Of a stretch of DNA of 64,000 nucleotides, positions 17,919 through 64,000 are shown piece by piece. The stretch's first letter is position 1, and every line of letters starts with the position of its first letter. Location of the stretch: positions 2,857,246 through 2,921,245 of the forward strand of contig NC_087081.1 of the NCBI RefSeq assembly GCF_026151205.1, given 5' to 3'. Made by a program: the position numbers and the translations under genes. This DNA is from Bolinopsis microptera. Taxonomy: Eukaryota > Ctenophora > Tentaculata > Lobata > Bolinopsidae. Below the pieces are notes generated by a model that was given only the letters and a program-made list of their open reading frames with translations, ran no database searches and was not told where the DNA came from.

Positions 17919-20900
17919 TTACAGACCAGATCCAAACGCAAATCCCAACTTCTGTTGAGCAGTTTTCTTCCTGAATATCCTCCTTCCCCGGACAATATTG
18001 TAGATGCCAACTGCTAGAGTCATTAAACCAACTCCTACTCCAATAGATACTGACACGCCCATCTCTGTCTTCATCACTGTAATAATTAGTTAATTAGGAT
18101 AATTATACCAGTTATGGAGCAATTAGTTGTGTCATAGACTAGTGACAGTGAATATGTGTTGGAGAAAATTGGCTGCGCTCTAAAGAACTTCACTGCACTT
18201 TACTCATATGTGAGGTGGAACACTTTTATTATTTTTAATAATTTTAAACGTTTTATTAATATTTAAATTATGTTATTATAACCTATAGCGGAAGTATCAG
18301 CATCGGTTGGTATCTTGGTGTAAACCATATCTGTTGTCAGCACAAAGAGAGGCAGTGAGATTAGCATCAGACAACCTGTAAAAGAGAGTTACATTTCTGC
18401 TGTTTTCTGACAAATTTGCTTAAAGACCATTTTTGAGATTCTGAATTTTTAAACCTAAATTTATTTTATGGGTAAAGAACTATCCCTGAAAACTATCAGA
18501 AACCATTAAAACCAACCGCTGGTTCTCAGAAACCCCTTTTTGAAACCGCTTAAAATGCTACAATTTGTCATTTTATATGTGCCAAAAGTGCTTGAAACCT
18601 CTTATCTGACTTTATGAGTGATCTTAAAGCACTTTTGTCAGAAAAAGTTCAATAAATTGATTTTAAGTAAATTACCCAGAAATTTTATTAATTTACTCTT
18701 TAGTATCAGTCCCAAAACAAATTAGGTCGACATGAACGGACAACCGATGATAATTATTTTCGCTAATAATAGCATTTTCATTTCGAACCCTGCAGAAGGC
18801 ACAACAAAATGCACTCTAATACATTTAATGGCTTACGGCCTGAAGAATGTTCAAGAGTTATTTGGCAATATAATACCTGTAATTCGACACAATGACAGAT
18901 AAAAAACAAAACATCTTGTTTTAGAAAGTAACATGCGAAGTTCTAACATTATTACAGTCGGCAGATTATCTCTCAGTTGGAGGGCTGCTAGAAAATATGT
19001 TCTTTGTATTATATTATTATTATTATAAAACAGGATCTTACCGACAAAAATGATTCTTAAAAATACCTTAAACTGTACCCTTGAAAAAGATTTTCCCAAC
19101 ATCTGTTGCATGCAGCTATATCTCTAATTTCGTTCAATTCATGCAAGTTGTCCATTTGCAAATTTCTACTACTTAAATCACTTCTTAAAACCGATAACAA
19201 GTTCATTCTAGGTCTCCCCAATCTACCAATGAATAAATTATCTGATTCAATTGCAAAAGAGAGAGCCGTTTGGGCTGGGGTGTTCTCCATACTCCTGAGA
19301 ATGTGTCCAAACATCTTCCACCGCTGGTGTTCAATTATACGATTGGATAACTTTTCAACTTTGCACCGTTCATACAATGCTTTGTTGCTTATCATACCTT
19401 TAGGCCATTTGATGTTTAAAATGGACCTGAGGTGTCTACGATATATAACATAACTAAATAACATAACTAAGCCGTCATTAATAACTAATAAGGTTATAAC
19501 ATTTTTCACGTACCTCCGACTGAAGTGAAAATTCCGGTGATCAGTTTAAAGATAACAAGATCTTTGTTTATATCAATCAGATAACAGATACCAGATAACA
19601 GCAATAAACCTGAGAGGGAGTGAACTGATTACAAAACCTTTCTTGGTTACTTGACAGAGATGATACTGAGTATAATTGTAGTGTTTTAAACACCATTTAT
19701 TATTATTATTATATGTTTATGCCGATATAATGGACCGAGTCTAATGATCAGTCCCTCTTTTTCTAAGATTTTCTCAAATAAGTTTATCTGTTTTATAAGG
19801 TACAGAAGATGTAACAATGAGCTTGCAGCAACTCACCAATGTTAATTCCTACAAATATTTCTGTACAATGGATGATGTGTCCGTCCTTGGGCTCAGCTGT
19901 CTCGATATCATGAATATTAACTGAAAATCAGAAATGGTGAATTCACTGATTTAACTGATATCCCGCCAAATTGTAAACAAAATTTTAACTTTTTAACTTT
20001 TTAACTTTTTAACTTTTCGCAGTTCATTATATGTTATAGCTGCATTTCAGTGATCAATAATTACGTAAAATGTGGGAAAGCTGAAATAAAATAAACAAAG
20101 TCTACTTTACTTACTTTTGATACAGCCACTGTCGAAAAGATCAATAGACTTCTTGGTATCTGCTATGGCAAATTTCGCGATACAAGTTGCCGTAAAACAC
20201 TGCTCATACGGACCGTAGAACAAGCAGTGCTGTCTGCCAGTGTCATCTGTGTAGGACCCTTCACACCAGTGCGGGGATATCTGCAGGAAAGTTTTATAGA
20301 TGTGGTTGTAGTGGTAACAATGGTTGTAGTGGTAACAGTGGTTGTAGTGGTAATAGTGCATGAGTGGTTGTAGTGGTAACAGTGGTTGTAGTGGTAACAG
20401 TGGTTGTAGTGTTAATAGTGGTTGTAGTGGTAACAGTGGTTGTAGTGGTAACAGTGGTTGTAGTGGTAACAGTGTTTGTAGTGGTAACAATGGTTGTAGT
20501 GGTAACAGTGGTTATAGTGGTAACAGTGTTTATAGTGGTAACAGTGGTTGTAGTGGTAACAGTGTTTGTAGTGGTAACAATGGTTGTAGTGGTAACAATG
20601 GTTGTAGTGGTAACAGTGTTTGTAGTGGTAACAATGGTTGTAGTGGTAACAGTGGTTATAGTGGTAACAGTGGTTGTAGTGGTAACAGTGGTTGTAGTGG
20701 TAACAGTGGTTGTAGTGGTAACAGTGTTTGTAGTGGTAACAATGGTTGTAGTGGTAACAGTGGTTATAGTGGTAACAGTGGTTGTAGTGGTAACAGTGTT
20801 TGTAGTGGTAACAGTGGTTGTAGTGGTAACAGTGTTTGTAGTGGTAACAGTGTTTGTAGTGGTAACCGTGGTTGTAGTGGCAACAGTGGGAGTGGTGGTA

Positions 20901-21608
20901 ACAGTGGGAGTGGTGGTAACAGTGGCTGTAGTGGTAACTCTGGTTGTAAAATTAGTGGTAATATTAGTGGCAAGTACTTATCTGCAGTAGTCGTGTAGAT
21001 ATAGTGGCATTGAGGAAATATATGTTATATAAGGACGATGGTGAAGCAAAGCATACTGATTGGGCTGATTTTATAAATCTAACAACAAATAGTCTCTAAT
21101 TTAACACTTACCAAGACAATAATAGAGCCAAGAATTAGGAGGAAGTTTATGACCAGTAAAATAGTAGTCCCACATTGATGTGCTCGCTGAAAGGATTGGT
21201 TTATTACTTTAAAAGTGAGATAGAGAACAAGTTAGAACCCTAAATTACTGTACCCAAATTTAGTGTACCTCTTCCCATTCCCCAAAACTGTATCCACATT
21301 TATAGTTTGTTTGTTGATGAATTAACTTAAACTATGAACTACCATTTCCTAAATGACTGCTGCCATATATATGACATAATATGTTGGTACACTTTTCACA
21401 TGAAAACACCGAGAAAATGATCATAATTTGTAAATTTAAAACATTAAATAAAATATAGAACAAAGCATCTACTCACTGTAAATTATTGATTGTAGGGCAC
21501 AAGAATCGAAATAAATTGATGGGAATACAAACAATTATTCATGAAACACTGAAGTTTTACCACATTCGTTTTCACAGGTTCCTCATAACTCATAGCAAAC
21601 AAATCCAT
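17919..21608 (-). CDS. Four-transmembrane protein, claudin/PMP22-like (complete, seven exons)
   Basis: Exons are 21608-21561, 21186-21112, 20280-20115, 19920-19837, 19609-19514, 18375-18283 and 18076-17919 (TAA 17919-17921), with all phases consistent. The product has 239 residues. A short cytoplasmic N-terminus (MDLFAMSYEEPV) precedes TM1 (TTILLVINFLLILGSIIVL). A large extracellular loop follows with a Trp just after TM1 and several Cys (HWCEG, CLFYG, QCFTATC). TM2, TM3 and TM4 (GVSVSIGVGVGLMTLAVGIY) follow, then a basic cytoplasmic tail (RGRRIFRKK). Topology and the Trp-Cys loop resemble the claudin/PMP22/clarin superfamily; the exact subfamily is uncertain. The first ATG fits because the 16-codon exon joins TM1 in phase 0. 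The introns hold a LINE relic and a minisatellite. Confidence 0.82.
19090..19460 (-). pseudogene. Non-LTR retrotransposon relic (C-terminal part of reverse-transcriptase ORF)
   Basis: The open frame at 19057-19509 (minus) contains RRHLRSILNIKWP, then ISNKALYERC, then a region with GHILR and GRPR. This order (RR-LR-IL-I-WP, IS-N--L, R----GH-LR, GRP) is the conserved region after the RT domain in many LINE ORF2 proteins. There is no RT catalytic motif, so it is a 5'-truncated fragment sitting in a tetraspan intron in the same orientation. Confidence 0.7.
20298..20955. repeat. 18-bp minisatellite (GGTTGTAGTGGTAACAGT)n
   Basis: About 36 copies with recurrent single-base variants (GTTTGTAG, AACAATGG, GGTTATAG) lie in an intron of the tetraspan gene. 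The long open frames across it in several frames (poly SGCSGN, poly VVVVT and their antisense) exist because 18 is divisible by 3, and are not genes. Confidence 0.95.
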
Positions 21609-38341: not shown

Positions 38342-40735
38342 TTAAACGGTCCTTTTGTGCTGTTTCTTTATGTGGAATTTGATAAAGATGTATTGTAATT
38401 ATTTGCGGCAAACTCCCGTTTCCAGAAGCCAATCAGTAAGCTTTGGACCTACGAAGACCCCAAAAGGTCAAAGCATCAAATTGACTTCATTCTCTGGCGG
38501 AAGAAATGGACCAATAGTGTGAAGAACTGTCAGGCCTTCAACACCATGCAGACGGTCGGTTCCGATCACCGTATAGTCACCTGCTTTGTCCAAGCCAGTT
38601 ACAGAGCAAACAGGACCCCGGCCAAAGACCCCCTTCGGAGTGTCGACTGGACCCCTCTTGTCCACGATCCCTGCTTAAAACATCAGTATGCAGTGGAAGT
38701 GAAGAACAGGTACAGCGCTCTCCTGCAAGAAGCAGAGCTCCAGTCTGACTATGACCTGATGGTTGATAGTGTCAAGACCACAGCTCTTCGAATACTTCCG
38801 AAGAAAAAGAAGAAGAAAAAGGGAAACCCATATAACGACCCTAATATTGCACACCATCGCAATATTCTCAAGACTGCATCTCTGGGTCATAGGACTTCTC
38901 CCTCCTTCTCATCTAAAGAAAAGCTCGAAGACGCCAAGAAGCAGCTGGACGAAGCATACAACACCGCTACTGCACAGTCTGTCCAACAACAGACTGCATG
39001 TCTGGAGCAGACTAACCCTGAGCACAGGCATCGGAGCTCTTGGCGCATCATCAGAGAGCTAACGTCTCCTAACACCGTGCCCTATAGTAAAATGCCTGGG
39101 GGCACCACCGAACAGCGGCTCAACGTTTGGTTTGAGCACTTCAAGTCGCTCCTCGGGACAGAGCAGCCACCCCCTGACCTCTCCTTGCCCTTCTACAACC
39201 AGAGAGTCTCGGACACCCTTCCCATTAGCTGTCTTCCTTTCTCCATGTCCGAACTCGATTCAGTCCTCAAGTCCATCAAGTCCTCCAAGTCACCAGGTCT
39301 AGATAGCATCCCTCCCTCAGTTTGGAAGCTTCCCCAACTTCGTGACGACCTCCTCAGTTTCTGCAACAGGGCCTTAATTGATGGAGTAATCCCTGAAGCC
39401 TGGACAACGGCATCTATTATACCCATCCCCAAGAAAGGCGACCTGACCAACCCCGGGAACTATCGAGGTATCTCATTGGCTCCGGTTGCAGCGAAAGTTT
39501 TCAACAAACTCATCCTCAACCGGATTTACCCATACCTGGATCCCCTACTGCGGCCAAACCAAAATGGCTTCCGCAGAGGAAGATCTACCCTCCCTCAGAT
39601 ACTTGCCCTACGACGCATCCTAGAAGAGTGTAAAATCGGAAATCGATCAGCAGCTATCGTGTTCGTCGACTTTTCGAAAGCATTCGACAGTATCAACAGG
39701 GATGCCTTGTTTCACATCCTCTCCCTCTACGGCGTCCCTGCTCCCATAACTGATGCTATCAGGCTCCTGTATGACTCATCGCACTCCAGAGTCAAAACCA
39801 TTGACGGCCTTACAGACTTCTTTAGAACACTCATCGGGGTCCTTCAGGGTGATACACTCGCTCCTTTCCTCTTCATCATCGTCCTCGATTATGTCCTTAG
39901 GAACTGCATGACTCTTGACCATGGCCTAACCATCATCCCCAGGCAAAGTCGGAGAGTACCTGCGGTCAGAGTCACAGATCTTGACTTCGCTGACGACCTG
40001 GCCTTGACTGCCGATACCATAGAGCAAGTCCAGCAACTGCTCTCGGATTTAGAGACTGCAGCAGCACATGTCGGACTTGCGATGAATGCTTCCAAGACCG
40101 AATACATGACCATCAACATTCCTGATGCTGCCCCCGTGAACTCAATATCCGGTTACCAGATCAAGCAGGTTGATGACTTCAAATACTTGGGCTCATATAT
40201 TGCAGAGAGCAGGAAGGACTTCAACACCAGGAAAGGCATGGCTTGGTCAGCCTGTATCAAACTGCAGAAGGTATGGACCTCTGGCATTTCTGACCAGCTG
40301 AAAGTCAAGTTCTTCAGAGCATGCATCGAACCTGTTCTGCTGTATGGCTCAGAAACCTGGACCTTGAACAAGCAGTTTGAGAAGCGTCTCGACGGGTGCT
40401 ACACCAGGCTCCTAATGAAAGCCAGGAATCTTTCATGGAAGAAGCATCCAACCCTAAAGCAAATCTATGGTGACCTCCCTTCCATCTCCACCATCGTTGC
40501 ACAGAGACGTGCCAGATTTGCTGGGCATTGCATGAGAGCTTCAGACCAGGTCATCTCTACCATCCTTCCTTGGCGGCTGCCACAGTTCAGGCGTGGGAGG
40601 AGACCACTCTCTTTTCTTGACACCGTAGCCAGGGACACAGGGTTGCGGGTAGAAGATCTCCGAACAGTTATGTGCGACAGAACCATCTGGAGACGTAGAG
40701 TGGAGGAGATTTCGATCGAGCATCGCCCAAAGTAA
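38342..40735 (+). CDS. Non-LTR retrotransposon ORF2: partial endonuclease plus intact reverse transcriptase
   Basis: The frame is open from 38399 to the stop at 40733-40735. Upstream it is closed by a TAA at 38396, beyond which similarity fades. In order: the end of the APE-type endonuclease (KLWTYEDP, HQIDFIL, GSDHRIV); a linker; the RT domain with IPIPKKGD, NYRGISL, RPNQNGFRRGRST, FVDFSKAFDS, GVLQGDTLAPFLF and the catalytic FADD (about 39985); and a C-terminal region with YGSETW, HPTLKQIYGD and RRARFAGHCMR. The RT ORF is uninterrupted, but the endonuclease is truncated 5', so this copy should not be autonomous. A 10-12 A run follows the stop. The clade is probably RTE- or Proto2-like, undecided by eye. 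Confidence 0.88.
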
Positions 40736-43828: not shown

Positions 43829-44865
43829 TTAGAACCTAGGTCTCATACCAGGGGGTCCCATGCCCATGGGTGGCATTCTGGGTGGACCACCGTATCCAGG
43901 AGGACCGAATCTGTTAGGAGCCATCATAGCGGGACTGGGACCACCAACTCCCTGCATGGGACCTTGCAGACCAGGTGCGCCAGGTTGAGGGGGCATGCCC
44001 CGACCTGCTGCTTTAGCAGCTCCCATGTTAGCTTGTGCTCCTCGGGGAGCGGCTCTTTGGCGGGTGTTTTGTGGGGGTGGACCTGAAATTAGAGTTAGAA
44101 TCAAACCAAATATAGTAAAAACCCAATATAATAAAAAAAGAAAATCCTATACATCATCAATTATTTAAACAATCGTCCTGTCAGTACGATGAGCATTGGT
44201 GGGGGGGGGGGGGGAGTCAACCCCATCGAGACCCATTTGACCAAAAGTTGAGGAATACATGGGCAAAATAGCATAATTTTCATCATTTTACGGTCACCAT
44301 ACTCTATTTAGGTAAAATGTAGCTGTACTCGCTAATTAGAGGATGACAAACACAGTGGTGACGTTTTAAGGCCCCCCCCCCCCCCCAGTATTCTTGAGTC
44401 TCTAGACACGGCAAGATAATGGCCACCTTCAAAAAATGTGTGCTCTGTAAATGAAATTGAACATCTGTTACACTAAAATTGCAATAGATAACTGGATATG
44501 ATCAAGCCGGGAGTAAAACACAATAGAGCGATTGCAAGATTCAGACGATATATCGTGAAAAGAGATCAAAGAATGATGAAGTTTACTATCTAAACTTGAA
44601 GTTTAAGAAATTTTACCTTCAACAGTCATTGACACGAGATTTTCTCCTCTTAAAAGAACGAGCCAAGGGCTCTCTTCTCTTCCTTATCTCCAGTTTTGGC
44701 TGTCTTCTGTCTAATTTTCCTGAACTCTTCGCAATCTCCGAGAACAAGGTTCATGTGTTTATCGAAAGCAAGAAACGAGCCAACAAACTGTCTACCATCT
44801 TGCAATGACACTCTCGTGCGGTAGTTGAGGTGCTGTTGGATTTTGGATGATCTGCCGGCAGGCAT
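43829..44865 (-). CDS. SNRPB: Small nuclear ribonucleoprotein SmB/B' (two exons, one-base frameshift)
   Basis: Exon 1 is 44865-44617 and exon 2 is 44082-43829 (TAA 43829-43831), joined in phase 1 (EG|PPP). Exon 1 encodes the Sm fold: [38 protein letters not shown], then RKIRQK and KEEKRALG. After RALG the frame shifts: the conserved Sm2 segment ([16 protein letters not shown]) is present but one base out of register at 44662/44663. Exon 2 is the Gly/Pro/Met-rich tail with PPGMRP-type repeats. The protein belongs to the heptameric Sm ring of spliceosomal snRNPs. About 167 residues is short for the family (about 230-240 in mammals). An intact intron and otherwise perfect conservation argue against a retropseudogene; a sequence error is likely. 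Confidence 0.9.
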
Positions 44866-48153: not shown

Positions 48154-51100
48154 TCATATATCGCTTTCCAAGTTGTCCAACTTGGGGTTATCTAGGTCTT
48201 TAAGCAGACCCTGTAATTGTCTGTCCACGTCGTCAAACTGTGACTGAAAATTGTTTGGTGGATGCTTGTCTGCCCAGTTTAGTGTCCTTAAATTATACAT
48301 AGGCAGAGAATTTGAAGTGTCTATGGGAACTTGAAACATTACAGGTTTCGGTGTTACAGTCTCAAACTGATAGTTTGCTTCTTCCGCTGAAGATTTGAGT
48401 GTGTTTTGAGTTGGTTTGTAGCTGCGCCTTTCTCGAGACTTGTCTCGGATCATCTTGACGGAGACGAAGACGACTATACAGACGACAAACACGCAGATGA
48501 CGATCACGACGATTAGCCACGTTTCTATGGGGTTGTCTATCACTGTGAGAGGTGTACCTGGAAATAAATTCAGGGGTTAAAAGTGGAAATATTTTAAATG
48601 TTATGACATTATCTGTCACTGACTGTCAGAGCGACCGTTACATCGAGATTCGAGCCTTTTCTGACCACAAAATCATGATAAATCTAGGATTTGAAGATAA
48701 CAAATATTTAAAGTATGCCAGGGAAGACCGCATTACCTTTACTGGTAACTTTGACAGTAGTAGAACTGGAAACGACATCGAAGTCGAAGTCGTTAGCGAC
48801 CTTGTTGTTGTCAGCTGTACACGTGTACTCTCCCTCGTCGTCGTTTTGTATGTTCATTAATATTAGTGAACTGTTCTCGTCAATAGTGGCCCTAAGACAA
48901 GGCGAATGTTAATTTAAAATTAAATCGAACAATGAAAATTACAGTGACGTATTTTACCAGTGTACCTCAGTACCTAACAACTGGATTTTGGAATCTAGTT
49001 GTCTGTGTCATTTGTTAAAAAGGAAAATGAGATATGATTCAACAAAACTACTGACGAAAAATTGTCACCTATTTAAACTTTGTATCTAAATAAAACTAAA
49101 GTTTTATCTTACCTTCCGTTGGGAGGCAACGTCCCCTTGGGGCCGGTCCATTTTATCTGAGGTAGCGGCTCACCACGTGCCTTACACGTGATGGTCAGGG
49201 TAGCTCCTATTGGTACCTCGTACGTGGGCAGGGGAGGAGACTCTATCACAGCTTGATATCGTACTTTTACTTGGTGAGCAGTGGAGGTTTTACCAGCAGG
49301 GTTTCTGAGAAAAAAAGGGTTTAGTTAATAATTAAATCATTAGTTAATAATTAAATTATTAGTAAATAATTAAATTATTAGTTAATAATTTAATAATTTA
49401 AATAATTTGTATTCTTATACTCGTTAGAATATTATGAATAACTTTGTTGTGTAAATGAAGATTCAATCTAAAATCAAGTTGAGGTATAACTTACTCGGCA
49501 TGACAGAAATACGTCTTAGAATCAGATCCCTGTACTTTCTTAAAAGTAAGCGTGAGTTCCCTATACGGCACCGAACTATCCGAGTCCATGGATCTCACAT
49601 AATATCTCTCATTAGTTGACTGAGCTATCACAGTCTCATTTCCCTCCTTAAACCTCCAGGTAAGAACAGGGAGAGGCTTCCCTCTAGCTTCACACACAAT
49701 GGAGCACTCCATGTCAGCTGTCACACTGTCACACCCCGAAACGCGTGTTACACTCGGCAGATCGTAGACCCGGACTTGAGTTACCGAGCTGTCTGAACCG
49801 AAGTCATTGCTCGCTTTGCACGTGTAGAGTCCGTCGTGCTGCGTGCTTTCAGGGTCTTGAATTATGAGGTTACTTCCGACTTTTGAAAACCCGTTTTGGT
49901 TATAAGTGTTCGTTTGAAGTCTGACTCCGTTTTTCCACCACTCGACGGTGGGGAAGGGATACCCGGAAACTTCACAAATAAGTGTGGAACGCTCTCCGGT
50001 GATTGGATATTGGAGAGAGGGGATGTTTTCTATTCGGGCCTTGCTACGAACTGTGATTATCACGTCTTTACTTCTGGAGCCCTGTAAAGGATACTAAACT
50101 TATCGTAATGGAGAGATAACGTTATCAGGTGATACAATTGAAACAATTCATGTAAAATCTAGCTAAATTGTAGATAAAGATTAAAGATGTAGAGATAAGA
50201 AAATGTAAATACCTGTCTATTAGTAACAGTACACTGATAAGCTCCGCTGTCAAATCTCGTAGCAGATGTGATTTTGAGAGTTCCGTTAGGGAAAATAACG
50301 TGATCTCTTCTAAGTGGCGCGTTGTTGTGCTTCCACTGTAGAGTGGGAGTAGGCTCACCCTGAGGAAAAGGGAGGGGTTAAGGGAGGGGTTAAAAGAGGG
50401 GTTAATGTTGAAACTACTTTATCTTAGGATATCGTGTGGTCTTTATAAATAATCTTAAAATGACCTTTTAATAAAAATTGTGCGATCATAAAGACTTAAG
50501 TAAACATCAAAATGAAACAATTCTCTCACCTCATAAAGACAGTCCAGCCAAAAACTCTCGTATTCCCTGACTTCATCATTAGGTGATATGTACGTGATAA
50601 TGGGCATGACATCCACATAAAGGTACCCAGATACACTGGATTTAGCGGCAGGGTTGGACACGTTACAAGAGTACTCTCCCTGGTCTTCTGGGAGGACTGT
50701 TTTAAAGAACAGTCCGTTACCTGGGGGAGGAGAGGGGTTTTAGGCGTGGTTAATTATTGTGGTTAAATATTGTGGTGTGGTTAATTATTGAGGTTATAGG
50801 TGTGATTAATTAGGTGTGGTTAATTATTGTGGTGTTGTTTGCAAACATGTCATCACTTATTATACTTCGTAAACATTACTATGAGTCAGTTACCTATGAT
50901 GCATTAGCATTTAGCAGACATGTTTTTAATTTTTATTGAAAAAGCGAGCTTACCTTTACGAGTCTCTATTCTAGGTGTACTAAAGCGAGCTTACCTTTAC
51001 GAGTCTCTATTCTAGGTGTACTAAAGCGAGCTTACCTTTACGAGTCTCTATTCTAGGTGTATTAAAGTGAGCTTACCTTTACGAGTCTCTATTCTAGGTG

Positions 51101-53136
51101 TATTGCCCCCCTCGTAGTAGACTTTTAGCAGGGGGATACCTCTCCTATACCACTGATACGTTGCAAAATCTTTAGTGATAGCTGCGGAGAAACATGATCA
51201 ATAAAACCAATTACCTATTGAAACAGATTAAATCAATTGATTTTGTGGAAGAATAACAATAGCTACACACTGTGCTTTAATTAAAAGATAAAAGAGTTGT
51301 TCTCAGTTTAGCTAATTCAAATGGTTGCCAGGAAACATAATGAAGAAAGCGTAGAAACAATTGTGAGGAGGGCGATATCGGCCACATTTTGCAGCATATA
51401 ATTATAAAAACGTAACATCCAACCAAGTTCTACTGAGCGAGATAATGTAAAACAAAACAGGAGAAATTTCACACTAAGTCAAGATGTTAAAATGGAGTGC
51501 AGTCTGCAAGAAGAACTAACACTCGGAGAAAACTGGAAACAAGTCACGTGATTGGAACAGGGTATCAGCTGTTAAAGATCCCCTCAGGAAAGAGAATGTA
51601 AGAGTCCAAACTTCAATTACCATCCTCTCCAATGATCTCTGTACTTCCAGGGTGATCCTCACTAACAACATCCTCTTCAATGATCTCTACTTTTCTCAGG
51701 TCTGCAAAACCACCACCTTCTGTAACACTCGCTGTAGGGCTGGAAGTAGTATGACTAACTACCTCTTCTTGTACGGTGTCTGTAGTTCTAACATTTGCAC
51801 GGCCAACCCTTGGGGCAGCATCAGTAGTGGGGGCGGTGGTGAGAGGTTCAGTGATATCAGTAGTGGGAGGAGTTTCAGTTTCAGTATCAGTATAGACATC
51901 CGTGCTTGTGGGCTCAGGAGGTTTAGTTTCCCTTTCACTTTCACTTTCGGTTACGATGGTGAGGGTATCGGTGTTAGAGTTGCCATCACCAGCGCTGTCA
52001 TCAGTGGTCGTTATGATACTCGTTACAAGATCGTCCGTTGGAAAGATTTTTATAGTAGTAATGGTGCCGTTGTCTAGGGATATTTGTTGTAGGAGCTGAC
52101 CCAAGTGGAAATGATCCTACCGAACCAGAACAATGATATTGATAATTAAATTAAACTAAATAAAATCTTAAAATAACTTAAATAGCACAAATAGATTAAA
52201 TGTTACATGAATATCGTAAATAACTTATATCAATTCAATTAATTAAATCCAACTCACCACAGTGCAACAGCAGATTCTTTTGTCCAGCTGTGACGTTAGT
52301 TTTTGTGGGGAGGGCGTGAGTTATTGTGGGGACATTGTAAACTGTCACTTGGACCGGCTTCGAGCTGACCATGTTCTCAGAGTTTGACGCCTGAACATGA
52401 TCAAGTGATTAGTGATAAGATATCTTGCAATTATGAATCAATGATAACAAGTGAAATAGAAAGTGAAAGTGAAAGAGAAAGTGAAACAATCCCCACCTGA
52501 CACATGAAGCTTCCACCGTCAACAGCTTGAGCGTCCTTAATCTTAAGTCCCTGTTCTGTAAACTCATACTTATCCACGTCAGCTGAGGTGAGAGCTCGCT
52601 CGTTTCTGTACCACGTGATCACGGGTACAGGCTCGGCTGTCGCTTCACACGGCACTAGAATGTCAGAACCAGTGATGCCGACGGTGTCTTTAGGTTTGAC
52701 GTTTATATAAGGAGGACCGTAAACAGAGATCTTGATGAAAATACTATCATCTCCATTCTCGTTTATTGCCTTGCACTCGTAGACGCCTGAAAAGTGAACG
52801 AGATTATGATAAATTCACGAACTTGCATACATATGAATAGAGAAATTACTTGGATTTAAATGAGCTCTAACTTTTCTAAGAATGAAAAGAAAATAGAAAA
52901 TACGTTAATATCATCACTTGACTCACCATTATCGGTGATCCTGACATCTGAAATATAAATAGTGGACTCGTAGAGGTTCTCATGATGCCGTATCCTGGAA
53001 TCAGAAGGCAGGGCTCTACTGTCCTTTAACCACACGATGCTAGGTGTGGGGGAACCTTGAGCTTCACACGTGAGCGTTACTTCAGTTCCTCTGCCTACAC
53101 TCTTATCAACTGCTTCTGATACTATCTTAGCAGGGC
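48154..53136 (-). CDS. Immunoglobulin-superfamily transmembrane receptor, seven Ig domains
   Basis: Exons in transcript order after the proposed signal exon (55340-55244) are 53136-52927, 52786-52497, 52390-52258, cassette 52073-51621, 51181-51077, 50720-50530, 50359-50213, 50081-49495, 49304-49113, 48891-48737 and 48557-48154 (stop 48154-48156). All phases agree. There are seven C2/I-type Ig domains with Cys, Trp and Y-x-C (for example TLTCEAQG...VWLKD...VYECKA; LICEVSG...WWKNG...GLYTCKAS; TITCKARG...IKWTG...GEYTCTAD), no FN3 domain, one TM helix (WLIVVIVICVFVVCIVVFV) and a cytoplasmic tail of about 95 residues. The mature size is about 820 residues without the cassette. The layout resembles neural or epithelial cell-adhesion receptors. 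I cannot name an ortholog, and the tail has no ITIM or kinase domain. Confidence 0.88.
50941..51104. repeat. 41-bp tandem repeat copying a splice donor
   Basis: Four copies (starting 50941, 50982, 51023, 51064) each contain AGCTTACCTTTACGAG. On the minus strand each is the end of exon 51077-51181 (ATAGAGACTCGTAAAG) followed by GTAAGCT. Only the copy at 51064 is continuous with the exon; reading through its donor meets a stop within about 12 codons. Confidence 0.9.
51621..52073 (-). CDS. Mucin-like cassette exon of the Ig receptor
   Basis: A 453-nt exon (151 codons) in phase 1 at both ends. The acceptor is TATCCCTAG and the donor GAGGATG|GTAATTG. It encodes Thr/Ser/Glu/Pro-rich sequence with TTDDS, SESERETKPPEPTST, TETETPPTTD and TTAPTTD, likely O-glycosylated, then an acidic end (VEIIEEDVVSED). 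Skipping it joins 52258-52390 to 51077-51181 in frame and restores an Ig domain with normal Cys-x10-Trp spacing. Including it inserts the segment right after the domain's first Cys. Other acceptors (52096, 52117) would break the frame. Confidence 0.7.
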
Positions 53137-55243
53137 CTGGAAAGATTGGAGGGTTAGATGAGTTACAAAGATCGGATAAAGTTAACTTATTTATAATTTG
53201 TGTACGTGTATTTAATTATCAGGGTTTCGGGTAATGGGGAAAAGGCAGAGATTTTACGTTGAGGGAAGTAATGATGTGTGCGGGGGAATGATGATGTGTG
53301 CGCTATTTTTTAGACTTCAGGATGAAATTTAAAAGATCTTATGTAGTAAGTGAATTATTGGAGTAGGAAGTCTGGGGAAATTTGGTTGAAAGAAAAATGA
53401 CAGGTATTTTTGACCGGAGAGTATACTTGAGTTAGACCTCTAGATAGACATGGGGCAATTTAAAATGCCAAAGTTAAAACATTCCCCCCAATTCTGATGA
53501 CATAAGGTGTCACTTTAAGGCGGAGCTAACAAATCTAGTCACTGACATGTGCCCAGATAATAAAATTATCAGTTACAACTACTCATTTGTTATCAGATAT
53601 TGATCCCAGACGCAAATGTATCGGACTGTGATCAGTGATGCAATGTTTCAGGTTGTGTTCTGAGGTCGGCGTCCTGTCGCACCACGTTTACAATACCCTA
53701 CACGGCACGCGTTGTTATTACAGTGGTGCAATGTCGTTACATTCCTTATACTGAGTAACTCATATTCAGATCATTCCCTTAGATAAGAAAGCATTAAATA
53801 ATACTTCAAAAATTGAGATTTTGGAGCACCAGATGTGATGATATTACCCAGAACCGGGATAATTTTCTGGTACATTCTTTTAAGATGATCGATAGTAGCC
53901 TGAGGTGGCATCATAAAAATTACGATTCTCGGATAATCTTATACACTGCGCTATATGATCGAGGAGTGGCAGAATATATCCAAATAATTGATTCGACGCA
54001 TATTTGAGTCAAAAAACAATCTGGGAGTGACAGGGAGTGATTGGTGTATGGTTTAGCAGAGAATAAAGTAAGGGCTCTTTCCGATCATTCTGTAACTTTT
54101 TAATCGCAGATATTGTGGTGATGTATATATTGGATTGTAAGAGTCGTGCTGACTGCTGGTGCTTTTGGTTAGAGAAAATGACGAAGTTAGGTACGGCTGA
54201 TAAATCTAGTAAAATGGCGGCTATTGTTGTAGCATTACGAAGTTACGAGAAGCTGAAATTTCCTCCTGAATCTTCTAGAACTCTTACCAGGAACTGTTCT
54301 TACGAATTACTAAAGTATGCAGAGTATGCGATTCAAAGTTGATTGGTGGTATTCGTTGAACGTGGAAATTTCAATTAGTTTCCATTAAAGTTTGGGGAGT
54401 GGACGAGTTAGCTTAGTCTAGATTAACACCTGGTCACGTGGTTAATGTCCAATTCAGAGACATCTAATCTAATGAATTTGAGGTAGCACTTTATTTACGT
54501 CACAACTAATGGTTCTCTAGCATTCAATTGCTTAATATTTCCAAAATTGTCATTTAATTCAATATTCGATGCCATTTTGAAATTGAACCATAAAATATAT
54601 GACATCGTTTCAGATTCATCTAAGTTGAAAAATGTTTAATATTTTCAGTCCGACTGAATTTCAGACGGATCAAGAAAGTTACAAAGTTAACCAAGGGGCC
54701 CTAATTCAGGTGCAAGTTGTGCCAACATCAACAGTATCCTTCCTCCCTTAGAAATTACCATGAAATCCAGGCCCAAAAATTATAATTCTCAAGGTCATTA
54801 AAGCCCAGCAATTTACAGGAAATATAATTACAGGACAAGCAATATTTAGACACGTGTCCAGAAGTTCAAAAGATTAAGGTAACGGATCTTTTAATTAGCT
54901 GCCGGCCAGCACGGCTCCCTATTCCCCGTGTGGTAATAACGCGGTTACATTGATTGGCATTATTTTACTTTGAACAAGATCTGAGTCGGCACATAAAAAT
55001 AGTGGGATATATTTCAGTTTTGAAATTGAATTAAAAGTGTTTTTTCTTCGATTAAATGTTTTGCAAAAGTAATTTGCAAGATAATGAATGCACCCCATCC
55101 GAATTTTTAAAATTTACTGGACAGACAGAGACGAAGTTGCGCACAAATTCACGATAACACAAGAACACGATCAAAGAAACAAACTGACGGACGGACAGAC
55201 AGACAGACTGACGGACCGGACGGACGTACTGACGATAACTTAC
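53137..55243. other. Large 5' intron of the Ig receptor
   Basis: No further exon recognised between the first Ig exon and the proposed signal-peptide exon. Small frames here lack domains. Confidence 0.45.
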
Positions 55244-55340
55244 TCTGAGGACCGTAGTCCCAGGCTCGCCTCCCAGGGGTTGCAGCTAGAGATGGGGACA
55301 GCAGGTTGTATAGACACAGATATGGGACTAGCTTTATCAT
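55244..55340 (-). CDS. Candidate signal-peptide exon of the Ig receptor
   Basis: From ATG 55340 (another in-frame ATG is at 55361) the exon reads MIKLVPYLCLYNLLSPSLA then ATPGRRAWDYGPQ, and ends CAGA|GTAAGT, a strong donor in phase 1. The first Ig exon (53136) starts in phase 1, and phase 1 after a signal peptide is the rule in Ig receptors. A short basic start, hydrophobic core and small residues before the likely cleavage site support secretion. Just past the donor is an ACGG/ACAG simple repeat. Confidence 0.55.
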
Positions 55341-55361
55341 AAGACGGTGAACATATCGCAT

Positions 55362-58300
55362 TTGTGGGTTGGAGTTTAAACTGTCTTTTTGGGAATTTGA
55401 TGAGAAACTTTGGGGTGGTGTAGGTCGTCTGATTTTATAAAGTGGCTTTGGTTTTCTGTGATTTGAAGGTCTTTCGGATTGAGTCTTTGGAGATAAGTTG
55501 TTTTGGTCTTTAGACTTGAGAGATATTCAGATATGTAGGACTTAGGACTTGGAGCTTAGAAAAGGCAGGGTTAGTCAATAAATAAGCAAAATAAATGAGT
55601 TTCATCAAAACACCAATGAAAAAGAAGAATTTCTTCGCAACACAACAAGAAGCCATAGATAAAACAAGCAAAAGCAATGACGATACTAAATTAACCAAAA
55701 CAGCAACTTCTTACCGGTAAATGATACCATACTGCAGTGCAAACGGCACAAACTTATCAATCCCATAAAACTCGCTCAATTTAAAATGTTACCGTTGTCC
55801 TGACGACACCATAATTTAACATGAAATGAAGGTGACCTAACCAATGGATTGGAATGATAGCAATCAGGTCAAATATGCACGAAATGACACACCATGATGA
55901 GTTATAGGTAGGTTCATTATTGATGAGCTATAAGACTAAGTTTGCATTAATTAATCAACAGTTTGTCGCTTTATTGATGCGCATAGTTTAACGGTTTACG
56001 AATTATTGCAGTTTCGCAGGTGACACTGCCGGACAGGAGGCGATGTTGACGCATTTGTGGTCGTACACGTACAGTAGCATCCGTTGTAATGTCTAATAAT
56101 ATTAAATAGTCACAAAACTGTCGTACGAGTTGAAAAAAACAAATAATTGAAAGAGTTTAAAGTTATTTAGCGGGCCTGACAAATCATACGACTCGAAAAA
56201 ACACAAAAAATGATATTGATACTGGGAATTATTTAGGAGGTACTACAAACATACTATAAATTATAAAGTCGAGTTCTTGAAGTCGGGCAAATGATCAAAT
56301 ACTATGAGTAAATGAAATAGGGGCGAGAAGCGTAAACAAATTTGATTAAACCGAGATTTGAGCCCAACATTCGGCCTTAAAACGACGAAAACCTCGATAA
56401 TATCATTGACTGCGGAACGAATATTGGATTAACTTGTTTATTGTACAGGGGGTAAATTAATTAATTACATTAGATTTAAATAGCAGAGAAACGAGATCAG
56501 AAGTGAGGGATGTGAGTGCATACAACAGATGTCTTCAAAGCTCCCACCAAATACCATCGGCTCTGACAAATCCTTAGCGTCTCAGGCATTAACCATGAAC
56601 ACGTGCCAAAATCTCAGTCACGTGACACAACATCGGACCTATGATAAACCATTATCGTCATCACGTGACCTGCAGTGAAGCTCGACGAAGTTAAGCGAGG
56701 ACTTTAGTGAATATAACAACCTGAGGAAGGACTCTATACTCTATAGTTTATCATTTCCTGTCGTTTGAGAGCTGGTGACACTGTAACGATCGGAGACCAG
56801 ACGCGTGTCCTTGCTATTTAGTGTGAGAGATCTAGACACGACTCAAGTCACGTGATAACAAGATCAATTGTCATCTGATATCAAGATGAATTGTTGGGTG
56901 ATGATACAATATATATGTCATGGAACCCTTACAATTCCTAGGGACAAACTTCAATATCCACAGCACATAATGAGGTATTAAAAAGCAGTAAGCACGATTG
57001 AACACTAACAGGAAGCATGTTTTGGATAAACTCTAACTAATGGCACTATATTTCACTATATTTCACTGTATTTCACTATATTTCACTATATAACATAATA
57101 TTGGGCCTGTCTAACCCCTGTTAGCTATGTGAATACCAGGTATTGTAGCTCGTGTCAGCGACCTTTAACTGCAGGATGTTAATAGGACTCGGCTTTTTAT
57201 AGTGGCTAACATTTCCTGTTTGGGGGTGTAAAACGGGACATAACGGCCCTTAATGAGACATTTAATGGGACATTGAGTGTCGGTGCATTTATAGCATGCC
57301 ATAAATAACCAATATGTAATATGTAATATGTGTTAAGATGGGGAAGGGACCGGGGTTTGATGACAAAATACCTAGTCGTAGTGCAGTACAAAAAATAAGA
57401 ATTACTATTGTCATTAAGTTGACTTATATATAAAGCGATAATTTGGAGCTATTAGCTTTTCAGTGATTGTGGTGAGCCACGCTAAATCAAAGTAGAGAAA
57501 TTAGAATATGACAAAAAATAAAATAAAAACTCACATACTAAAGTCAATGAAAAAGATATCAAAATAATGTTAAGACAAAGTTGACGACCTAATGGCATAT
57601 TCATTTAATGACTTATGGCCACAAATATTGTCTAAATATTTGTCGCTATAATTGGAACGCAAATCACTGACTTATATTAACGTGTTGGACCGGGAAAGTG
57701 ATAATTGCAAGCCATTAAAGTACCAATATTTGAATTGTAGCGATTAGCTGAAAATCCTGGTGCCTGGTGACTAGCAACCCAAACTCATTGTAAGTCAATT
57801 AGAATTGGGCTTAAGATACAAAATCATAAACCCACAAACAAAATTTATCAAAATAACGCGGTCAACCCGAAAAAAGCATTAAATCGTGGCAATATATCCC
57901 TGTTTTCTGTTTTCTGTTTTCTGTTTTCTGAATATTCATCATATTATTCGAACAAACCAAAAATTATTATTATTTATATATGTTAGACTAAACTTAACGC
58001 GACGAACGGACAAAGCTATAGCAGTGAGCTCCATTAATATTTCGGTAACATTGTGGCGAATCGCTGTACCAGCTTCCTCCAGACACAACAACCGCAAACT
58101 CATTGAAAGTCCATCAGCATTGGGCAAGAACATACATATTATTGAATAGTTACAATCTTTGATTAAGATGATGGACCAATAAAGTGATGACTGATGATTA
58201 CGATCCATTAACTTTATTTTCGATAACTTAATTATGCCGATTAAACTGTACCCGTTTAAGTCAGGTAATGTAACTAAACCTCATTGAAAGTTTATCAGAA

Positions 58301-58442
58301 GAGGGCCAAGGCAAAATAAAACAATATAATAAGCCCGTAATGTGAAAAGAAAGGCAGTCAAACCGAAAAAATGAATACAAGATAGAAATAAACTTTTAAA
58401 ACTAGATCAAGACATTACAATAATCCAATCACTATGCAGATA
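55362..58442. other. Upstream region, no gene supported
   Basis: This may hold the promoter of the Ig receptor. It includes a 10-bp tandem repeat TATTTCACTA at about 57049-57089 and four copies of TGTTTTC near 57900-57930. Frames are short and unconvincing. Confidence 0.4.
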
Positions 58443-58530
58443 TTACTGTGCGGCGCTCAGCCTGTCGTTCCACCAAATCTCCATTCCATGATTATGAACA
58501 TAAATATAATAGCCTGGGGTCCCCAGGTAA
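58443..58530. repeat. TTACTGGG/CCCAGGTAA short repeat family, copy e
   Basis: It starts TTACTGTGCGGCGCTCAGCC and ends AGCCTGGGGTCCCCAGGTAA. It lies 12 kb from the other right-hand copies, so the family is dispersed. Confidence 0.77.
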
Positions 58531-61500
58531 CTGCAGATATTACCGTACAGTTATACCACAGGATAATATCTACAGTGAACAAACGGGGGGTTTTCAGTTC
58601 AATTAAAAACTAATTAGTAAACGCCCAATACTAAACTCCGGCAACCTCCCCTCGTATTAACAACTAACTAATCTCTGGACGGGACTGATATAAATATAAC
58701 TAAAATCCTCAGTAACCATGGAGTCACGTGACTGTAATGAGTGGCGCTGATTGGTTAACTGGGTAATTCTGTCGGGACTGTTCAGTTGACGGGCTCGAGT
58801 GTTAATTAAAGCTTGTCTAAGTCCCGGGAAACTCGATGGCCAACGAAATTATAGGAATTATATCGCTAGCCAATAGGAAAGCAGGATTGAGATCACGTGA
58901 CAAGAATTGACCAATAGGAAACTCAGGATAGTGACGACAAAGAAGGAAATATAGTATGGAGGCATGAGGGGGCAGGTTTAGATCGTTTGTAGAACTATGT
59001 GTCAAATATTGGGAGAAGCTCCCAGAATATAGCTCCTAGCTCATGAACGCAACATGTGTCATTTGCTATGGTCCTCCATTTAAATACCCGCTACAAAGGA
59101 ATCCCGCTAACAATATGTCCTTATAAAGAACATTAAATCCGGGTATTCGATACTTCAAACTGGTAGGAATGGATAAACTGCAGCTTTTAATGAAACTGCT
59201 GTCAAAGTATGCCACTGCTGTCACCGTATACCACAAAGACTGCCACTAAGACCCACAAAAAGAGCAATATTTACAGAGAGGCGAATACTGGATTATATAG
59301 GGGCCAGTGCAGCACCACACGATATATAGAGTATCAGGTGGCATCAAGCCATCACTCCCAACCGGACTACCTCACCAGCTACCCACCAATCAGGACACAG
59401 GACTACAAGTCACGTGACGAGACACAGGCCAATGAGCGGGCTGTATGTAGCACACGTGTTTAGTCCGGCAGGTTGAGTTCAGGTGGCTAGCTGTGGCTAC
59501 CCTGTGACACTAACCAATCAGGGAGCTTTATTTGAGTCAGTTGACGGGTGTTAACCAATGAAAAGGGAGGGATAAACCCACCCTGGTCATACTCGGAGGA
59601 CCGTGAAAGTAGGGGTGTCGGGGGAGTGGAACTGTGATCTGAGTTTCGGGGGTGGCGAGTCTGTTCTCATAGTTCCTTATTCCGTAGTTCACCCTGACTT
59701 CCTGGTTTGTGCAGACAGCATCATTACCTCATTTGACCAGAGGTTTAGTTCTAGAAGGTGGTGGGAGACAGTGACTACTACAGTGTCCGGTCTGGAGTAG
59801 CTACAAAGGGACGGCACACTAATGATTGATAGTTTTAACTTTTATAAGATCTTGGGGGTCTCAATCTGAATGGAGCCATGACAAATTGCAATTACTGTCA
59901 GGAGAATTACAGGGATCACAACAAATTCAGGTATAGGACATTGTACACTGACCAATGGGAAGACAGGACATGGTACACTGACCAATGGGAAGACAAGGAG
60001 ACATAACGTGACGTTGTACTAACCAATAACGTGACGAGTACAGAGGGGACAGAGGTAAAACCAGTGAGCTGCTGTGACCAACAAGTTCTCACAATAACAT
60101 ACGCATCATAACAGTGGGGGTTTATTATGTGAGAAAAGAACAGAGGTTTAGTCTAGAGAGACCCACAAAAGAAGAGAGAGAGAAATGACCAGACATAATC
60201 GAGCGAGAGAGAGAGTGTCCTTGGATTTGTTCACAATGACAAAACGGAAAAGCAGCAGCAAAACTAATGAAAACCAAGCGACTGATCGGTACTAAATAAG
60301 ATTATGTTTAAATCTGAATTGAATAATGCGATCATCACAACAGTTAGGTAATATATGAGGTGTGAACAGGAAGATTTGAACATGAGGTAAACAAGTCAGA
60401 GATATGGTTCCCGCCTCCCCACTTGTGGTACTGATACCAGCTTAGTACTGATAAAACAAGGTGTCTAAATCCACATTGTCTTTACTAAACCCGATACTTA
60501 GCTCCAGTTAACCTCATGTCAATACACTTCCTGGGCTGGATCAGGGGCTGGGACTGGAGGGACTGGAGAGTGGCTAACAAGGTGAAAAGTAATGATTGAG
60601 AAGCCCTCTAATCGCAGTGTGAGGGGGAGCACGAAACACTTACCATCAGGATACACTGTACAACTGTTGTTACTGTAACACGTGTGTTACCTACCTATGT
60701 CACCCTATGTTAGGGTTAAACTGGGCCACCACATTGTGTGATCACCCCACTTTGTGTGACCACCGTGACGTAACAAGTCAACCTGTCTTCAAAGATGGAT
60801 GCTAGATCAGTGGATCAGTGGTACTTACCACACAGCTCTGTGTTTCTGAATATATCGCTCTGTGGTACCACCGTTTTGCAAAGCCTTGCTATATTGATCA
60901 GCCTAAACTACAAAACTATAACTGCAGATTAGCCTAAACTACAACTGCAAAACTTTAATTACTGCACAGACTTAAATCATAATCTCCCTAATACCAAGAC
61001 CCCGCCGCGCCAGTTCGAGGTAATTTATTTAACCTTAACTACAAAACTACAACATTCGAGCCACAAATCTTACAATCTTATATCCACCAAGCTCCTGATC
61101 TCCCCGACAGTTACCAACCCGCACCACTCCCGGAAAAGCCTGTCAGCGGGGGGATCAGGAACAATAACACGGCACCTGACAGCCTGGATACAATTCCCAC
61201 ATTTCATGGTCTTGTCAAATACTCCGAGTAGAGAGGAGGGACACATCATAACGAGGAGGCTAACATCAGGGGACAATATTAACGACCGGTCCTGCAGTCC
61301 TGGCGCGCGACCAGTAGCTTTTATATCGACCACAACATCTGTATTCCGTCAAAATCAGCCCCCCCCATTACATCACTCTTACCTGGTGATGAGAGTGACT
61401 CAGATCACCCTGAATATAACTTTAGAGGGAGCAGGGTTACTGTTTTAACGGCTCACTTTCTATCCGGGAAGTGTGAACAGCATTAATTAGGAATATCAGT

Positions 61501-64000
61501 GCTCAAAAAGGGGCCCACCCTGGCACTGAGAGGGTGACAAATTCAGCAGATTAGGAGTTGAGGTTGCTAATGTTAGGTCATCTGTAAGATTGATCCCTGG
61601 AGAGCATTACTTCATGCTGCTTCTACGATATTTCATCAGGGGATCGCAAGCAGAGTGCAATCATAAAATTGAGGCATAATTCGAAAAAATGAGCGTCAGA
61701 GCTTTGAATATAACAGGGGAAGTTTGCTTGATTGTGATTAAACGGCAGAGGAGAAAATGCTTGCATTGGCCATGGCCGGCCAGGGTTGAGTCATGCTATC
61801 TTACTCGCTTCAAAAGAGCCGAACTAATAATATAAGAGTAAATTGTACGAAATGTTGTAATGATTAAAGAGTCGGATAAAGCAACAAATGGTAAACAATC
61901 AGGCATAATGCAAACGACAGAGCAATCATATGCAACATGATACTTTATACTGCTCTCCAAGCAAACGTAATAGAGGATTTTGGAACTTTTACATGGTTGG
62001 TAATAAGGCAAACGTTCTGTTTTCGAAAGATTTCACCCCCGCTAATATCGTAAGTAAATCAACTTAATGATAAGTAAATCGAATAAATTTAATAAAGTAA
62101 ATTCGGTCAAAGGTTATGTAGATTAAATTCCCGATAAAAACCCACAAAAAGCAATATCGCAGACGACCAATTAGACAGCCTCCGATCATATACACCAACT
62201 AAAAGATATTCAGAGAGTTCAGTAATGATAACACTTAACAAAAGGAACAAAAAGAGCAGAGTCAGACAGCACTTAGAAAACAAAGCTAACGACCAGTGAG
62301 GAGGGTACAGCGATGTAACGTATGGAGGAAGCGTCGGGTTAGTCTATATCTGATATTTAAAGATGTATCATTGTGTTTAGTATCTGATTTGTAGTGAGTT
62401 TAAGAGCTTATTTTGAAGCTTGTTTCGTCCCAAGAGTGATATTGAAGACGGCAAATACTGAATGATTATATCAGAGAAGGGTGAAATACGTGTGAAAATA
62501 CGTGAGCTATGGATAGCACATTGCAATTATCAAGGGTAAAAGTATAATTTGATGAGCAGACGGAGAATAGACATGGTATGATACAGAGTGCGTCTGTAAG
62601 TCTATAACAAGCGGCAATATGGTGAAGCCAAAGAGACGAATAAAACGTTCAATATACAAATCACAAAATGTTAACCGATCTAAAGTTAAATGAACAAGAC
62701 ATTTTACCTGCATGTTAAAAGAGAGGTTATGCCCAGTCGCGAAATTATGTAATTTACGGACCCAAAAGACGCAGCTCTAAAGATTCAAGGCTTGAAACCT
62801 GTTTTTAAATACTTTTTAATAGTTTCAAAATTTCTGTATGGCAGGTAATATTTTAACGTCTCAATATGATGTGTTAAATACGATTATTTTGTTATCCTAA
62901 AATATGCTGTAGAGTCGTAAAAGTAAGATAATTACAAAGCAAGGGCCCAGGAGAACTAGCTGTCAACATTAACAGACGGCACTGCTGCAGTAACAGCAAA
63001 AATCAATTGTATTCAATTTCTGAAGAACCGCTCGTAACACTATCCTCAGAAACTTTAACACAAAAATTTAAAAATTTCGTCAAAAAAATGTACAGTTAAA
63101 AAGTGACCCACTCAAATAAAACAGCGACACGATGTGGTCACACAGATGCGGCAGCGACAAGGAATATATCAATACAACAACTGTCTCTCGTCTCATACTA
63201 ACATGCAAGCTTGTAGATTGTCACTAGTACTACGTTCTAAGGCTCAACTGAAGTAGTGTTGAAGTAGAAGCACGATCAGGGGAATTGCATGTGTGGGCGA
63301 GGACTTGTGATGAGGTTATTTGAGAATTAGCATTTTTATATTTTTATAGAGCTCAGCGGTTAAAACTGAATACTGTAGCAGGCTTGGCAATAAGATGTTA
63401 CATATACTATTGTTAAGTCGTATAGGTCGTAGTTCAAGTTAGTTTTGTCAAAGTGTGAGTCCTCCCGTAATGTTCTAGGGTCCCCCATAAAGTTTGAAGC
63501 AAAATATCAATATTCAACTAAGGTATAGGACGATATAATAATAATGATAATAATAACGGTTGCGAGACTGACAGCAACAGCTTGACTGATAATACCAATA
63601 ACCAATAATAATTATTATCATTATGACCACTATTCTAATCAGTTCCCAACGGTCGGCAGCAGCACTGATCTCATCTTAATGTTGAGATGAATTAAAATGA
63701 AGCACCAGGTACAGCTTGATGACAGACGATCACGTGATTATTTTGTATATTCTAGAAAGTGGTTCCTGACTTTTTGATAACGTTGGGTTTGGAAACATTA
63801 CCATCTAAAGTTGCAATCAGAGGCTTGATCTCAACTCATTACTGTAGCTACATCTCGATGTAATTGTAACTGTAAGGTGAGAGCAGCATGATCAATGACA
63901 AATCTACGGCATAGGCCTGTTATAAGTTACAAATTTAAATTCTGCGGAGATCAAGTTGTAATTAGTTAGGAAGGAGCGTGTAACATAGGAATTAAACAGG
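58531..64000. other. 5.5 kb without a supportable gene
   Basis: No conserved domain, exon chain, tRNA or large repeat was recognised. Several CACGTG motifs and a direct repeat of CTGACCAATGGGAAGACA (about 59948-59995) are visible. Frames such as 59209-59463 and 61070-61333 have no support. Confidence 0.4.

Follow-up and report, generated by a model that had tools for sequence, protein, structure and literature searches.

We propose that the segment at 52073-51621 is a cassette exon in a minus-strand gene for a single-pass receptor or adhesion protein with seven Ig domains. Skipping of this exon would keep the third Ig domain (Ig3) normal, whereas its inclusion would insert 151 residues; we hold this reading with about as much confidence as doubt. 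The frame and position of the segment, its coding signal and the open reading of both forms were computed from the 64,000-nt window, i.e. the whole stretch of Bolinopsis microptera DNA that was analysed, and all positions given are those of the window.

A seven-Ig receptor gene with an optional reading

Between 53136 and 48154 on the minus strand, 11 exons can be joined in one frame, with the cassette either in or out. The exons were picked by eye and the joins were checked by script; all introns of the seven-Ig gene have GT-AG borders. The exons, together with two shorter elements discussed below, are as follows.

52927-53136, minus strand: E1, first Ig domain seen, with a phase-1 acceptor
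52497-52786, minus strand: E2, end of Ig1 and most of Ig2
52258-52390, minus strand: E3, end of Ig2 and start of Ig3 up to its first Cys (ending TGT G)
51621-52073, minus strand: candidate cassette exon, 453 nt, phase 1 at both ends, rich in T/S/E/D, no Met, no Cys
51613-51620, minus strand: donor GTAATT, with an in-frame stop TGA (51615-51613) 3 nt past the GT
51276-51281, minus strand: ATTAAA, possible poly(A) signal if the cassette were a terminal exon
51077-51181, minus strand: E4, Ig3 past the Cys, including the core Trp; Ig match
50530-50720, minus strand: E5, end of Ig3 and start of Ig4
50213-50359, minus strand: E6, remainder of Ig4
49495-50081, minus strand: E7, Ig5 and most of Ig6
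49113-49304, minus strand: E8, end of Ig6 and start of Ig7
48737-48891, minus strand: E9, end of Ig7
48154-48557, minus strand: E10, transmembrane helix, cytoplasmic tail and stop codon

The receptor is at least 804 residues long with the cassette skipped and at least 955 with it included (the spliced translations run to 805 and 956 letters, counting the stop sign and a partial first codon). Pfam identifies seven Ig stretches, each matched above the cut-offs by both Ig_3 (E 1.4e-97) and I-set (E 1.1e-95). The single transmembrane helix in E10 was read from the sequence by eye, with no predictor, and is followed by a cytoplasmic tail of approximately 100 residues. When the Ig array was searched by sequence against solved structures, the top match was Dscam chain 3dmk (E 3.2e-46), with the ectodomains of Robo-2 and contactin-2 also among the best. 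These matches place the gene among the I-set adhesion and guidance receptors, without giving it an ortholog name.

The phase-1 acceptor of E1 implies at least one exon further upstream. As the upstream exons are missing, the "third" Ig domain is counted within the window and the true number of Ig domains may be higher. When the 64-kb window was searched with a profile built from the seven domains, no additional Ig exon came above the inclusion threshold, and under the criteria used no signal-peptide first exon was found in 53250-64000. A 195-residue query from E7 yielded no confirmed relative in viral_contigs (3 pattern matches) or genome_contigs (31), both collections without animal genomes. 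This is probably an ordinary kind of receptor gene that contains an unusually placed, real coding exon.

Elsewhere in the window, an LSM domain is encoded at 44653-44856 on the minus strand (E 3.9e-14), in a gene that presumably specifies an Sm-B type protein. Exons at 14365-15245, also on the minus strand, belong to what we take to be a CCDC25-like gene; the one tested piece that matches Pfam does so with NFACT-R_1, below the cut-off (20.7 vs 29.8 bits).

The cassette lies between the first Cys and the Trp of Ig3

A first-pass annotation of the sequence had described a frame-preserving exon inserted inside the third Ig domain, and its coordinates are right: TAG precedes 52073, GTAATT follows 51621, and the 453 nt in between are a multiple of three. 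The frame check of the joined exons gave phase 1 at both ends, as claimed, and the interrupted domain, split between its first Cys and its Trp, is indeed the third of the 7 called by Pfam. At the skip junction, E3 (52258, ending TGT G) meets E4 (51181, beginning CT), which yields a C-x10-W spacing; inclusion adds 151 residues directly after the Ig3 Cys.

The description of the skipped Ig3 as canonical holds insofar as the domain passes the Pfam Ig_3 model, but its C-x10-W is one residue short of the C-x11-W found in the other six domains. The translations also reveal that the proline-containing loop of those six is absent from Ig3, so it is precisely in this loop that Ig3 diverges. The Ig_3 score of Ig3 is 36.8 bits with the cassette skipped and 25.8 with it included, relative to a cut-off of 30, although a long insert may lower the Pfam score of any Ig domain in any case. 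With the cassette included, only profile positions 30-78 of Ig_3 are matched, and the Ig_2 and I-set models respond to inclusion as Ig_3 does. What stands of the original interpretation is a probably coding, frame-preserving exon between Cys and Trp that leaves Ig3 intact on skipping; use of both forms by the one gene would be a further step.

The segment carries a coding signal

The segment 52073-51621 looks protein-coding. Its period-3 signal is 18.0, compared with a mean of 1.02 for Markov sequences (0 of 2000 as high), 0.57-5.54 for the other ten exons of the gene and 0.29-2.61 for its introns, bearing in mind that low-complexity T/D/E codons by themselves push period-3 power up. With the two short simple-repeat arrays of the cassette masked, the value is 15.6. 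Each of three parts of the cassette (52073-51990, 51989-51717 and 51716-51621) exceeds its nulls, with 0, 0 and 1 of 2000 as high, respectively. Past the cassette, the 180 nt that start at 51610 have a signal of 0.60, and the 96 nt following the stop are devoid of it (1652 of 2000 nulls as high). The GC content of the cassette (0.47) is like that of the other exons (0.43-0.54), the remainder of intron 3 having a value of 0.325. Across the 64 kb, 4 of 421 stepped 453-nt windows reach 18.0, all of them over microsatellite DNA between 20.2 and 21.1 kb; a tandem repeat with an 18-nt unit and 35.5 copies occupies 20302-20948 and is open in several frames.

Introns were simulated using the same splice-score thresholds as for the candidate exon. 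A frame-compatible open cassette of at least 453 nt occurred in 0 of 3000 sequences of intron 3 composition and in 0 of 3000 of flank composition. Real sequence outside the gene was examined in 422 windows: one holds such a cassette, and two hold one of at least 300 nt, both overlapping the reverse-transcriptase ORF of a LINE. That ORF is a 778-codon open frame of a LINE-like element at 38399-40735 on the plus strand and matches RVT_1, the reverse transcriptase model, with E 1.1e-34. At the same thresholds, 7 of the other 8 introns contain no in-frame open cassette, and the E4-E5 intron contains two of 12 nt. Under three compositions, with 2000 simulated introns for each, an ORF of 166 codons was reached in 3, 2 and 0 cases, which makes ORF length alone less striking.

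Codon choice was dropped as coding evidence. The cassette scores -0.022 per codon, a value reached by 1 of 2000 intron nulls; all but one of the 10 other exons score above it. When stops are disregarded, three further frames of this ORF outscore the coding frame (0.260, 0.183 and, antisense, 0.178), so codon choice gives the frame no support. An exon with an internal start was ruled out, as the ORF contains no Met. On the plus strand, an antisense open frame of 185 codons (51520-52077) is longer than the 167-codon sense frame of the cassette ORF.

Splice sites and alternative readings of the segment

Splice sites were scored with generic matrices, and the scores are crude as a result. On this scale the cassette has the lowest donor of 10 in the gene (4.80, next 5.05) and the lowest acceptor of 11 (-3.20, next -1.38). 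The intron removed on skipping is the longest, at 1076 nt, the others ranging from 106 to 356 nt. Weakest sites combined with the longest skip intron fit an optional exon, but fit a little-used or unused one equally well. Phase 1 is found in 7 of 9 donors scoring >2 inside the ORF, so that finding a donor in phase 1 says little by itself.

Were the exon constitutive, the insert would be present in every transcript and Ig3 would be permanently split in this species. The strong coding signal throughout the cassette is compatible with this, and between 52250 and 51780 no other AG opens a phase-1 frame to the donor. That the cassette has the weakest splice sites of the gene, and that skipping yields an exact in-frame Ig3 that passes Pfam, argue in the opposite direction, and we consider constitutive inclusion unlikely, albeit the best placed of the alternatives.

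The exact ends of the cassette are inferred. Frame-compatible donors at 51990 (5.76) and 51717 (5.23) both score above 51621, and frame-compatible acceptors at 51731 (4.62) and 51719 (-1.38) both score above 52073; with such better-scoring internal in-frame sites, the ends may differ and need not be unique. In addition, splicing to the acceptor at 52116 (score 0.80) would enter the ORF at codon position 1; the ORF might therefore follow E2 in place of E3, a phase-0 exchange whose lengths agree in frame (496 and 133 nt each leave a remainder of 1). Shorter in-frame exons (52073-51990, 52073-51717 or 51731-51621), occurring by themselves or in addition to the full-length exon, or a replacement of E3 from 52116, are taken together slightly less probable still. 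The crude scores prefer several of these sites to the full-length pair; however, coding signal is present in all three tested parts of 52073-51621, and replacement of E3 would delete strands of both Ig2 and Ig3.

Marginally below this we place an alternative terminal exon, whereby donor 51621 is unused, the reading frame closes with the stop at 51615-51613 and the mRNA ends past the ATTAAA at 51281, giving a secreted Ig1-Ig2 protein with a T/E-rich tail. The in-frame stop immediately past the donor would suit such an arrangement, as would the weakness of that donor and the location of ATTAAA 332 nt downstream. We estimate, however, that approximately 430 nt of AT-rich DNA would be expected to hold one ATTAAA or AATAAA by chance; the terminal form also leaves half an Ig domain over, and a frame-compatible donor is present. 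A low-complexity intronic stretch open by accident is very improbable: weak splice sites, the antisense ORF, the two short 6-nt simple arrays and a codon choice without frame specificity speak for it, but the period-3 signal persists with the arrays masked and no such cassette arose in either set of 3000 simulations.

A 27-nt inverted repeat (89% complementary) of GAAAGT-like units pairs 51922-51948 in the cassette with 52459-52485 in intron 2. The duplex energy between intron 2 and the cassette is -56.6, while 300 shuffled pairs have a mean of -47.7 (SD 6.7, lowest -67.3). At approximately 1.3 SD from the shuffled mean this is not exceptional, and the pairing was ruled out as evidence of regulation; stronger pairing is seen for 6 of the 9 other introns, each of them exceeding intron 2 in length.

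No exon-sized duplicate was found among the repeats of 50900-53200. At 50941-51102, a minisatellite of four 41-nt copies (98% matches) repeats the final bases of E4 together with its donor, creating four identical donors at 51077, 51036, 50995 and 50954. The latter three each bring a stop, and only 51077 keeps the frame open.

Composition and predicted fold of the insert

Counting the junction codons, the insert comprises 152 residues, of which 34 are T, 12 S, 33 D/E, 8 K/R and 11 P, with no Cys. There is a single N-glycosylation sequon, two residues past the Ig3 Cys. The number of S/T per 20 residues is 5-9 up to about residue 120 and 1-3 thereafter, the last ~30 residues being acidic and S/T-poor. 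With S+T making up 46 of 152 residues, the term "mucin-like" used in the annotation is apt in this respect, but sits less well with the modest proline content, the S/T-poor end and the outcome of a tandem-repeat search of the cassette, which returned only two arrays of ~3.5 units of 6 nt each. The cassette end also contains a 20-nt direct repeat (95% identical, 51621-51640 and 51669-51688); the copies are 48 nt apart and thus share a reading frame (EIIGED and EIIEED).

By charge-hydropathy analysis the insert falls among disordered sequences, whereas each of the seven Ig domains falls among folded ones. Pfam offers no convincing match for the insert (best YopX, E 0.17). AlphaFold2, run without an alignment, placed three strands in the first 42 residues, which would not suit a disordered stalk, with block pLDDT values of 73-90 over the first ~40 and a mean of 59.4 for the whole insert. 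As the same procedure did not succeed with a genuine pair of Ig domains used as positive control (Ig5 with most of Ig6; mean pLDDT only 45.3), the model proves neither disorder nor fold and is given little weight. A Foldseek search with it gave no match at 0.001 (best E 0.79).

Comparison with known splice inserts

Optional exons that enlarge an extracellular part are familiar from CD45 (exons 4-6), and those of CD44 and CD45 lengthen the stalk between domain and membrane. In NCAM, the Ig4 insert is named VASE, and the muscle-specific inserts bear O-glycans. The C5 domain of MyBP-C is an Ig domain.

The mini-exon meA of PTP-delta, a LAR-type receptor phosphatase, encodes 3, 6 or 9 residues that form a loop between two strands of Ig2 and alter ligand affinity (PMC4423211). 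The present cassette resembles it as a frame-preserving exon inside one Ig domain, but adds 151 residues behind the B-strand Cys in place of 3-9; no S/T-rich stalk is known to be associated with meA, and Pfam shows no phosphatase domain in the present gene. Alternative exons of NCAM give small insertions, including in Ig4 and between FN3 domains, and a juxtamembrane S/T-rich stretch is predicted to be O-glycosylated (PMC2267215). Both an alternative exon inserted in an Ig domain and an S/T-rich stretch in an Ig receptor are thus shared with NCAM, but there the insertions are small and the S/T-rich stretch is juxtamembrane rather than within an Ig domain.

The variant exons of CD44 are likewise optional and enlarge its extracellular part (PMC7601683); in contrast to the stalk exons of CD44 and CD45, the exon considered here would split a folded domain. 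In arthropod Dscam, splicing of exons 4 and 6 swaps the N-terminal halves of Ig2 and Ig3 (PMC3364881), so in both cases splicing would act on an Ig domain of a multi-Ig receptor. However, Dscam selects mutually exclusive half-domains from exon arrays, whereas a single insert is seen here, with no duplicated exon in 50900-53200. Cardiac MyBP-C has a 28-residue charged insertion in C5 (PMC5803174), again a charged insertion within one domain; it is shorter, fixed in the cardiac isoform and part of a cytoplasmic protein.

Small splice inserts in Ig domains and optional stalk exons are therefore both already known; judged against these systems, a 151-residue insert at the putative BC loop would combine the two, acting as a splice insert but composed as a stalk exon is, and both this pairing and the size are unusual. 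Among titles and the starts of abstracts, with sparse coverage of subscription papers, we found no Ig domain that carries an insert of mucin-like or S/T-rich character.

A possible splice-controlled gate at the Ig2-Ig3 junction

In the Ig topology, the BC loop behind the B-strand Cys is found at the domain end turned towards the domain before it. The position of the insert, behind the B-strand Cys of Ig3, would correspond to this loop, which points to an action on the Ig2-Ig3 junction. Under the cassette reading, skipping would join 52258 to 51181 and produce a normal Ig3. Inclusion would place 151 T/S/E/D-rich, negatively charged and probably disordered residues right behind the B-strand Cys, at the end of Ig3 facing Ig2, where passage through the secretory pathway would probably lead to their O-glycosylation. 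If the Ig3 fold survives, such a bulky charged branch may alter the spacing or bending of the two domains, shield them or change ligand access, leaving the rest of the receptor unchanged.

That splicing acts as a switch gating a single Ig domain is plausible for this gene. More tentatively, and with doubt prevailing, we suggest that the single cassette switches between an intact Ig3 and an Ig3 bearing a 151-residue, acidic, O-glycosylated branch in its BC loop, and so would act as a splice-controlled steric gate located in a folded domain and not in a stalk. If both forms are made, a stalk-sized mucin-like segment would be placed by splicing into a core Ig loop, and the gene would test the tolerance of the Ig fold to insertion behind the B-strand Cys. 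Adhesion receptors could then be gated sterically with their binding domains unchanged.
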